From Bifidobacteriaceae bacterium (GTDB lineage Bacteria > Actinomycetota > Actinomycetes > Actinomycetales > Bifidobacteriaceae): DNA of 36,297 nt. The DNA lies in contig JALCOX010000012.1 in assembly GCA_022649925.1 (NCBI GenBank), positions 1 through 36,297 on the forward strand. The letters are read 5' to 3'. Both the position numbers and the translations under genes were made by a program. The notes below the pieces were generated by a model, which was not told the origin of the DNA, did no database searches, and saw nothing but the letters and a program-made list of their open reading frames with translations. Shown piece by piece: positions 4,002-36,297 of this stretch; within the stretch, counting starts at the first letter, position 1, and each line of letters starts with the position of its first letter.

Positions 4002-4805
4002 TCACTCCTTCGTTTCTTCAGCCGGCTTTGCCTCGGCTGCAGCGGCAGCCTGAGGTGCGGCGTTGCTCTGTGCGGCCTGAGCACGAGGTGCGCGGCGCGG
4101 ACGACGGGAATCGCCACGGCGTCCACCGCGGTTACCCTGTGCCGCCTGCTGCTCGTCGAATTCCTTAGCAGTCATGTCGCCCTTGTAAATCCACACCTTG
4201 ACGCCAATGCGACCGTAAGTTGTACGAGCTTCGAAGAAGCCGTAATCAATGAGTGCACGAAGCGTCTGAAGCGGAACGCGGCCTTCGCGGTAGAACTCGG
4301 AGCGGCTCATCTCGGCGCCTCCAAGGCGACCGGAGAGCTTGATACGAATTCCCTTTGCGCCTGCACGCATTGCGTCCTGCTGTGCCTTACGCATAGCGCG
4401 ACGGAACGTGACGCGATTGGTGAGCTGCTCAGCGATTCCCTGTGCGACCAACTGTGCGTCGATCGCGGGGTTCTTCACCTCGAAGATGTTGAGCTGAACT
4501 TGCTTGCCGGTGAGCTGCTCGAGCTTTGCACGAACGCGGTCAGCCTCTGCGCCACGACGTCCGATGACAATGCCGGGACGTGCGGTGTAGATGTCGACGC
4601 GAACGCGATCACGTGTGCGCTCGATGGTGATCTTGGAAACGCCTGCGCGCTCCAGATCAGCATTCATGGCCTTGCGAATCTTATCGTCTTCGCCCACGAA
4701 GTCGCGGTAACGCTCTCCCGGCTTCGTCGAATCTGAGAACCACTTGGAGCGGTGAGATTCGGTGATGCCAAGGCGGTAGCCGAACGGGTTAATCTTCTGT
4801 CCCAT
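4002..4805 (-). CDS. rpsC: 30S ribosomal protein S3
   Basis: 267-residue S3 of the mRNA entry tunnel. The N-terminus [14 protein letters not shown] is diagnostic. A type-2 KH domain follows with the loop [17 protein letters not shown] near residues 79-95, then the S3 C-terminal domain ending near residue 215. From there an Ala/Arg/Pro/Glu-rich tail of about 50 residues runs to the end, as in many actinobacteria and probably unstructured. Its ATG and the rplV stop are close upstream, and its own start overlaps rplV as TAATG. Confidence 0.98.
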
Positions 4806-5170
4806 TATCGGGCTCCTTCCTTGTCGAGCGTAGCAACGACAACGGTGATGTGGCTGGTGCGCTTGAGGATTCGAGCGGCACGTCCCTGAGCACGTGCGCG
4901 GAACCTCTTCAAGGTCGCGCCCTCGTCCACAAAGGCCTTGGTGATGACGAGGTCGTTCTCGCGGAACGGCTCGCTCGCCTTGTCGGCCTTCACTCGCGCG
5001 TTTGCAATGGCAGACTCAAGAGTCTTGCGAACCGGCACTGCTGCCGACTGCGGAGCAAACTTGAGGATGGTGATGGCTTCCGTCGCATTCTTGCCTCGGA
5101 TGAGGTCGACGACGCGGCGAGCCTTGCGCGGCGTCACGCGGACGTGACGGGCAATTGCTTTAGCTTCCAT
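4805..5170 (-). CDS. rplV: 50S ribosomal protein L22
   Basis: 121-residue L22, whose beta-hairpin lines the exit tunnel and is a known macrolide-resistance site. Visible blocks are [21 protein letters not shown], the [12 protein letters not shown] helix and the loop [17 protein letters not shown], followed by RTSHITVVV. The hairpin loop looks full length, with no obvious resistance-type deletion or insertion. Its stop codon shares a base with the rpsC start (TAATG). Confidence 0.97.
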
Positions 5171-8319: not shown

Positions 8320-8580
8320 TGCCGTACGCCCTTTCCTTTTCGTATCGATAATTCAACCTATTTCGGCACTTCAGGGCGCAGCGGGCGGAATACTCCGACC
8401 GGAGACACATCAGTGCGCACCGCCCTTCTGCAATCCATGCAGAAACGGCACGCTCGCTATTAAATATACAAATCTGCGAGCCCTAAACAGGCAACTTGTC
8501 AATCAAACCACAACAACATCCCCTGGCGCAACCCGGGTGTGTCGCATTTCGCATGCTGCATAAAGCAATATTTTGCAGCA
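8320..8580 (-). promoter_or_regulatory. S10 operon leader and promoter zone
   Basis: Non-coding region upstream of rpsJ. It holds an AT-rich block (8458-8471) and a TTGACA hexamer on the minus strand (8497-8502), but these are 28 bases apart, too far for one promoter. A TTGCCT (8489-8494) and TTGTAT (8466-8471) pair with 17-base spacing is the best candidate, which would give a leader of about 140 nt. Inside the leader TTCTGCA (8426-8432) and TGCAGAA (8438-8444) form a perfect hairpin. A regulatory role is inferred only. Confidence 0.4.
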
Positions 8581-8591
8581 CTTTCCTCCTA

Positions 8592-8651
8592 TCGGAGAGA
8601 ATCGGTCGATGAGAGGCCACCGGGGCGCTCTCAGCGACCGAATTCCTCCGA
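8592..8651. repeat. 60-nt hairpin element, copy A
   Basis: A long imperfect inverted repeat: arm 8592-8608 pairs with 8635-8651, and an inner stem TGAGAG (8610-8615) pairs with CTCTCA (8628-8633). It begins 11 bases beyond the stop of the AbiEi/DUF559-like gene. A second copy in the same orientation lies at 9705-9764, with 42 of 60 bases identical by my alignment and both ends conserved. No T-run follows on either strand, so it is not an ordinary terminator. Confidence 0.75.
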
Positions 8652-8662
8652 AATACCGCGCA

Positions 8663-9619
8663 TCACCTGCGCGGAACTCCGAACTCAGTCAACAACTTTT
8701 TGAAGTATGCAGGGTTCATGAGCTCGGCATAGCCAAACCGCAACAGTCGAACATCATAAATGGAGAGTCGCGATTCGCGCGCCTTCTCCTTCTCTAATAC
8801 CTGCTCAACCGTGAGACCATTCCTCATTCCCTCATCCACATACTTCTGCCGACCATCAAACTCTCCCACGATCTGAATGCCGTTGGGAAGGGTCCACATA
8901 AAATCGGCCCTGTAGCGCCGATGTGTCACGGGGTCATTGAAGGCAACTTGCAGCTGAGGGAGCGCAAACCCCAGTTCGTACATCAGTGCTCGTGCCTTGG
9001 ACTCGCCGCCGTTTTCTGAAAGTGGATCGATCAATGAAAATGCAAGCCTCGCACTCTCCACTCCCCGAAAGCCTCGGTGTTCATCGAGGAAATCCGCGAG
9101 TCGAGGAGAAGATACCCACCTCTTGCGCACGGCTTGGTCGCAGATGCCCAGACTCTCTTCGAGCGGAAGTGTCCGCGCGCAGTCGAAAAGCGTTCGCTCA
9201 ATGCTGCAGACTCTCACGCCCCGCAGCCTGAGATCGCTTTTTTCAGAATCATCGAGGTACGACTGAACGATTCCCGCTGGAGTATAAGAATGGGAGCGAG
9301 GTGGCACAGCTACCATCACCTGCGATAACAAGCGGAAGGTCCGAGTCACTCCATATAACCACGCCGCGCACGACCCACTGAGGATCCACTGCGGATGCAG
9401 TTTCGCCAGCGTCTTGATGACGCAATCACCCTTCTGCTCGTACGTCAATGAGGACCACTGCACCGTTCGCACATACACGCCTCGAGCCGGAGACATCACC
9501 TCGCCACATCTTAGCCGCCGCTGAATTGCTCTGCGTTGGGGCTCGGTAAAACAGCACAGGCCAAACCCGCTGGACTCGGCCTGCTCAAATGCGCGCCAAA
9601 GGTCTGCGTGAATCTTCAT
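8663..9619 (-). CDS. AbiEi/DUF559-like protein: winged-helix-type N-terminus, nuclease-like C-terminus
   Basis: 318-residue protein resembling the actinobacterial family annotated as type IV antitoxin AbiEi-like or DUF559. Residues 22-50 look like an AbiEi-type N-terminus (LCCFTEPQRRAIQRRLRCGE, then ARGVYVR). Residues 205-260 resemble Vsr/DUF559 endonuclease folds: Glu206, Asp239 in RYRADF and the GEFDG motif with Glu253 and Asp255, then RQKY. Cleavage activity is not proved, and no AbiEii-type toxin gene is adjacent. It stands alone between adhE and rpsJ. A perfect palindrome lies 40 bases upstream and a hairpin copy on each side. The ribosome-binding site is weak. Confidence 0.7.
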   Translation of the reverse strand: MKIHADLWRAFEQAESSGFGLCCFTEPQRRAIQRRLRCGEVMSPARGVYVRTVQWSSLTYEQKGDCVIKTLAKLHPQWILSGSCAAWLYGVTRTFRLLSQVMVAVPPRSHSYTPAGIVQSYLDDSEKSDLRLRGVRVCSIERTLFDCARTLPLEESLGICDQAVRKRWVSSPRLADFLDEHRGFRGVESARLAFSLIDPLSENGGESKARALMYELGFALPQLQVAFNDPVTHRRYRADFMWTLPNGIQIVGEFDGRQKYVDEGMRNGLTVEQVLEKEKARESRLSIYDVRLLRFGYAELMNPAYFKKLLTEFGVPRR

Positions 9620-9658
9620 GATTCCACGATGGCAGAATCACAGAGTTCAGCACTCAAT

Positions 9659-9679
9659 ATTCGACCACTGTGGTCGAAT
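9659..9679. promoter_or_regulatory. Perfect 21-bp palindrome (candidate operator)
   Basis: ATTCGACCAC (9659-9668), a single central T, then its exact reverse complement GTGGTCGAAT (9670-9679). It ends 40 bases upstream of the AbiEi/DUF559-like start codon, where a promoter would lie. AbiEi antitoxins are known to bind inverted repeats in their own promoters through their N-terminal winged helix, so autoregulation is a reasonable inference. Confidence 0.65.
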
Positions 9680-9704
9680 GTGCCGACCCACCTTCCTGCA
9701 TCTA

Positions 9705-9764
9705 TCGGAGAAAATCAGCCGCTGGGAAGCCGTTTAGCAGCTCTCACCGGCCGTTTTTCTCCGA
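9705..9764. repeat. 60-nt hairpin element, copy B
   Basis: Second copy of the element at 8592-8651, same length and orientation. Arm 9705-9721 pairs with 9748-9764 at 15 of 17 positions; an inner stem TGGGA (9723-9727) pairs with TCTCA (9742-9746). The pair T8606-A8637 in copy A is C9719-G9750 here, a compensatory change, and other differences keep G-T wobbles. It lies between the adhE terminator and the operator-like palindrome. Confidence 0.75.
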
Positions 9765-9783
9765 CAGGTGCGGGATGAAGCGC

Positions 9784-9818
9784 AAAAAGAAGGCCCGCAC
9801 CTTTCAGTGCGGGCCTTC
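9784..9818 (-). terminator. Intrinsic terminator of adhE
   Basis: A perfect 12-bp GC-rich stem (GAAGGCCCGCAC at 9789-9800 with its complement at 9807-9818, six-base loop) is followed on the minus strand by TTTTTGC. It starts nine bases after the adhE stop codon and ends that transcript. Confidence 0.92.
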
Positions 9819-36236: not shown

Positions 36237-36297
36237 GAATACATACACACGCTTGTTCGTGGAGTTTTGACCGCTGAGAAGCGCGCAGGGCGCACTC

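Follow-up and report, generated by a model that had tools for sequence, protein, structure and literature searches.

An AbiEi–nuclease fusion gene bracketed by cognate palindromes in Bifidobacteriaceae, and its likeness to REPtrons

Results

Architecture of the locus

The window, which is the whole 36,297-nt stretch analysed and constitutes contig C12 of the source assembly (1.70 Mb in 71 contigs, 77% complete), carries between adhE and rpsJ a gene for an AbiEi–nuclease fusion protein, P0001, flanked on both sides by palindromes of the TCGGAG type (Table 1). The palindrome cores are exactly 60 nt each (68 nt with their flanks), have the same orientation and are 71% identical over 63 nt, in line with an earlier note on this DNA that described two same-orientation 60-nt elements about 70% alike. 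Both form near full-length hairpins, as the note also held, with energies of -39.1 kcal/mol (8592–8651) and -29.7 kcal/mol (9705–9764) and plus-strand folding z scores of -6.3 and -4.4, respectively; none of 200 shuffles folded equally well. They are symmetric palindromes in which base i pairs with base 61-i, and the fold is strong on either strand. No T-run follows either copy, as observed before; a TTTTT lies within the 3' arm of the 9705–9764 copy, and this run is not conserved among the palindrome family. The adhE terminator, with a perfect 12-bp stem (9789–9818), is located between adhE and palindrome 2.

Table 1. Features of the window. Positions are those of contig C12.
Feature	Position	Strand	Remarks
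AbiEi–nuclease fusion gene, P0001	8663..9619	-	318 aa
AbiEi-like part, residues 1-198	9026..9619	-	winged helix and antitoxin-type domain; PADLOC profiles, fold match 6y8q
Vsr / EDxHD-homing-endonuclease-like domain, residues 203-316	8672..9013	-	fold matches 3r3p and 1cw0; invariant columns
Palindrome 1, TCGGAG type	8588..8655 (60-nt core 8592-8651)	.	11 nt past the gene's stop codon
Palindrome 2, TCGGAG type	9701..9768 (60-nt core 9705-9764)	.	86 nt before the gene's start codon
Palindrome-gene-palindrome segment	8578..9788	.	missing between adhE and rpsJ in congeners G001 and G002
Truncated TCGTGG-type palindrome	36253..36297	.	right end of contig C12

The base pair T8606–A8637 of palindrome 1 is replaced by C9719–G9750 in palindrome 2, exactly as stated in the note, and six copies carry C-G three times, A-U twice and U-A once at this position. 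The paired changes are real, but a compensatory change alone is no proof that the structure was selected, as the note had supposed, since paired changes also arise from template switching or from gene conversion among copies.

The rpsJ–adhE junction, whose comparison in relatives the note had proposed, spans about 360–400 bp in G001 and G002, with neither gene nor hairpins, versus 1,507 bp in the source genome, where conservation covers the rpsJ leader to about position 8577 and returns with the adhE terminator region at about 9789. The site is thus empty in two congeners, but no target duplication is visible at the unit, and an integron-like or TSD-bearing insertion was rejected on this ground. 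Loss of the unit in G001 and G002 could be an alternative to insertion. Family genes of another subgroup are found closely upstream of rpsJ in genomes G009, G015 and G024 (L137, L138, L156), so that the site has been occupied more than once.

An AbiEi-like fold joined to a nuclease-like domain

The PADLOC AbiEi profiles match residues 28-178 of P0001 (E 3.5e-6), and no model in Pfam or NCBIfam matches the protein. An AlphaFold2 model built from 54 sequences has a mean pLDDT of 93.5. Structural alignment with VIA-align relates residues 2-198 to the Streptococcus agalactiae AbiEi (6y8q; Z 12.0). The rmsd of this match is high, at 7.6, which perhaps reflects a different placement of the two sub-domains. 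Residues 203-316 align with the homing endonuclease I-Bth0305I (3r3p; Z 10.8, rmsd 2.3 over 94 of 97) and with Vsr (1cw0; Z 9.7); a Foldseek search gave no match at E<=0.001. Six residues are invariant in the 54 sequences (E202, E206, D239, E253, D255 and K259), of which E206, D239, E253, D255 and K259 are candidate catalytic residues on the strength of this conservation. The earlier reading of the protein as AbiEi/DUF559-like therefore stands in its AbiEi half, by profiles and fold; DUF559 has no Pfam match, and the fold of the C-terminal domain resembles those of Vsr and I-Bth0305I.

No gene for a toxin partner (AbiEii nucleotidyltransferase) is present beside the window gene, its neighbours being adhE and rpsJ. 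Among 73 relatives, a neighbour read in the same direction lies within 100 nt in only nine. The phage search returned no relative of P0001, and the plasmid search returned a single weak one, on a 900-kb Collinsella record.

Two palindrome types, two genes

A pattern search of the source genome for TCGGAG..CTCCGA gave four more exact 60-nt copies. The covariance-model search suggested in the earlier note uncovered a second end type, TTGTTCGTGGA..TCCACGAACAA (the TCGTGG type), and a model built on both end types finds at least 28 full-length palindromes, six of the TCGGAG type and 22 of the TCGTGG type. A paralog 53% identical to the window protein is encoded at C3:42376-43329 and is flanked on both sides by TCGTGG copies, which are inverted to each other and nearly identical (59 of 60 nt). 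Both genes have one copy upstream, 81-86 nt ahead of the start codon, and one downstream, 11-19 nt after the stop codon, and all 28 full copies belong to the two types found at these two genes.

Most copies are located away from the AbiEi–nuclease gene. They are intergenic, with 27 of the 28 sites past the 3' end of a gene on at least one side, and seldom fall between divergent genes. Three further palindromes are cut by contig ends. The last 27 nt of the window are the first 27 nt of contig C19, into which C12 probably continues, and contigs C15 and C16 likewise end inside palindromes; the assembly is broken by the palindromes, and the copy number is therefore underestimated. A reading as uptake sequences was rejected, since nearly all TTGTTCGTGGA words in the genome fall within palindromes. 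On contig C40, a pair surrounding one gene (L052:3982-4049 and 4799-4866) has differing end types and a common rare core, CCGCTTAC, as if neighbours had exchanged cores. Rfam returned only weak, chance-level matches, and a pattern search for the source-genome palindrome in GTDB genomes, a set that perhaps does not include the source genome, returned none.

Over 25 copies from the source genome, 85.3% of cells are paired, compared with 71.0% in shuffles and 37-44% in slid alignments, and both sides have changed in 24 of 30 pairs. In 21 copies oriented by the upstream gene, sense-strand mismatches are G.T in 31 cases and A.C in 23 (p=0.34), near equality as expected for a palindrome kept at the DNA level; nothing singles out RNA folding, and the protein-binding RNA considered in the earlier note is not favoured. 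The longest T-run in the 3' arm measures 1-5 nt on the sense strand, and at most 2 nt at nine of these 21 sites.

The same arrangement in relatives

The set of relatives comprised 80 named members from Bifidobacterium, Collinsella, Olsenella and Gordonibacter, in which 78 family genes were scored with 500-nt flanks. A repeat shared between the two flanks occurs at 53 of the 78 family genes, compared with 5 of 116 direct neighbours and 7 of 646 other genes of the same loci; at the remaining 25 family loci, no flank-shared repeat was found. Restricting the comparison to intergenic DNA leaves 37 of 55 versus 5 of 135 (p=2e-20), and long palindromic arms on both sides are found at 24 of 78 family genes versus 4 of 232 controls (p=2e-12). 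Together with a paralog that has its own hairpin type, these counts bear out the earlier note's central claim that gene and hairpins belong together. Sixteen more distant relatives, examined by the same method and without a control set, include ten with a flank-shared repeat.

In other Bifidobacteriaceae most family genes have a repeat common to both flanks, and it differs from gene to gene, even among the five paralogs of G009. Across the gut actinobacteria surveyed, the repeats likewise vary between genes and are often long palindromes. The two members of a protein pair have a flank repeat in common in all 18 pairs with at least 75% identity, which are syntenic orthologs whose common repeats are not independent, compared with 6 of 115 pairs at 50-60% identity. 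Once protein identity falls below about 75%, orthologs seldom keep a common repeat, and most loci are therefore separate cases.

Dispersed copies were seen in several of these genomes and are weak in some. Each of four Collinsella genomes contains 4-11 exact-pattern copies of the 55-nt palindrome that flanks its gene; the pattern has no match in genomes where the family gene is without that type, and a reversed-pattern control gave 0. In 400 kb of the distant actinomycete G039 there are 19 occurrences of the flank motif GTGATCATG, with 1.3 expected; seven of the 19 lie at the gene, some of the sites elsewhere are chance matches in coding sequence, and others have the longer half-site GGGGCGAACNTGCATGATCAC. 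The flank repeat of G024 recurs at just two other places, and no dispersed copies of the flank repeats were found in G009. Dispersal thus holds in the source genome, the four Collinsella genomes and G039.

Four palindromes similar in design are present in congener G001, but the one family gene detected there (36% identical) carries a different repeat. At the convergent ilvN / ABC-F junction, palindromes are present in both the source genome and G001 (L076:3605-3672 and L084:3425-3492) with stems that differ and pair fully in each; the same is seen past the glycerate kinase gene. In G015, from another genus of Bifidobacteriaceae, 55-nt palindromes of the form ATCTGGAAAAACGTACGCTGA..TCAGCGTACGTTTTTCCAGAT (L090, L091, L094) have a core resembling that of the source genome, and none were found at that genome's own family genes.

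Discussion

The AbiEi–nuclease gene and its palindromes probably form a REPtron-like unit, in which the gene for a DNA-binding nuclease is bracketed by its own cognate palindromes and further copies are scattered through the genome; we place the probability of this reading at roughly 0.6. The cognate association between gene and palindrome is well supported. A nuclease-like domain with invariant acidic residues, encoded by a gene that lies between palindromes of its own and tracks them, suggests that proteins of the P0001 type cut DNA there and drive the spread of these palindromes through repair, a role ascribed to homing endonucleases and REP transposases at their respective sites. Among the options raised in the earlier note, palindromes as substrates of the nuclease-like protein would fit best. 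That note had set a gene-linked unit against a general REP-like repeat; many copies do lie away from the gene, but the two descriptions are not mutually exclusive.

The AbiEi antitoxin is an autorepressor that acts on its promoter by binding a palindromic inverted repeat as long as 23 bp (PMC3985639). Because this fold binds such a repeat, it is natural to expect, by analogy, that the AbiEi part of P0001 would bind its cognate palindrome. The nuclease part may then cut at the palindrome or close by, most likely while the palindrome is in an extruded or single-stranded state. Repair of the break would copy the palindrome to new sites and keep its copies similar to one another. The palindrome upstream of the gene may double as the gene's operator.

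A purely regulatory role, with the palindromes as operators through which an AbiEi-like protein represses itself and genes near the scattered copies, and with a nuclease-like domain that is only structural, appears unlikely. The autorepression of AbiEi and the regular placement of a palindrome before both genes of the source genome would accord with it, but the copy after each gene is just as regular, the scattered copies of the source genome sit almost wholly past 3' ends and rarely between divergent genes, the place expected for operators, and the nuclease domain has acidic and lysine positions that do not vary across the 54 sequences. It is quite improbable that the palindromes are the ends of a mobile cassette that moves the gene itself, an option also raised in the earlier note. 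The empty site in two congeners, the two units in the source genome and the near-identical inverted pair around the paralog are features such an element could leave, but most palindromes stand alone, the source genome has no Y1 transposase, no target duplication accompanies the unit, and no family pair with more than 70% identity occurs at different places, so that no recent movement of whole units is seen among family pairs. Bidirectional terminators or insulators multiplied by recombination, with the nuclease gene merely caught between two of them, are very improbable: the position past gene 3' ends and the retention of palindromes with changed stems at two orthologous G001 junctions speak for them, but the T-run is not conserved, palindrome 2 stands beyond a perfect adhE terminator, and bracketing is not seen at the other genes of these loci, a gene-specificity that argues against them.

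REPtrons consist of a TnpA-REP / RAYT gene with its cognate REPs (PMC8266576, PMC3733652). The REPtron-like unit proposed here resembles them in that a single-copy DNA-processing gene is bordered by cognate palindromes, with others spread between genes genome-wide. It differs in its enzyme, an AbiEi and Vsr/homing-endonuclease-like protein in place of a Y1 HUH transposase, and in its palindromes of 55-68 nt; inspection of source-genome copies by eye showed no obvious unpaired GTAG or CGTC tag at one end of the palindrome. A Y1 transposase (PF01797) was matched in none of the source genome, G001, G002 and G015, while control genomes were positive; a Y1/RAYT protein was accordingly rejected as the mobiliser of the palindromes, the fold of P0001 also being different. 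Because this defining transposase is absent, the unit is not classed as a REPtron.

P0001 shares with the AbiEi antitoxin of type IV AbiE systems (6y8q) its N-terminal fold and a long palindromic site beside the gene. In contrast to that antitoxin, it has no adjacent toxin partner and possesses an extra nuclease-like domain, and its palindrome is found after the gene and scattered as well. The C-terminal domain has the fold of Vsr and I-Bth0305I (1cw0, 3r3p), whereas here it is joined to an AbiEi part and encoded between palindromes, not in an intron.

Our survey of the literature, incomplete in its coverage, found no paper joining AbiEi and DUF559 and no matching description of such palindromes, and there is a fair chance that AbiEi–nuclease units are a separate class of their own. 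More tentatively, with close to an even chance of being right, they may represent a widespread class of element in Actinomycetota, in which the fusion protein propagates and preserves its palindromes through homing-like cutting and repair. If true, this would provide a counterpart to the REPtron that relies on an unrelated enzyme, as well as a candidate mover for palindrome families in genomes that have no RAYT transposase, and it may constitute an undescribed route by which short repeats spread in genomes. With a distinct nuclease family in place of the REP transposase and a different palindrome for each gene, the question is directly testable. These units also offer a role beyond toxin neutralisation for the large set of genes known solely by their AbiEi likeness.
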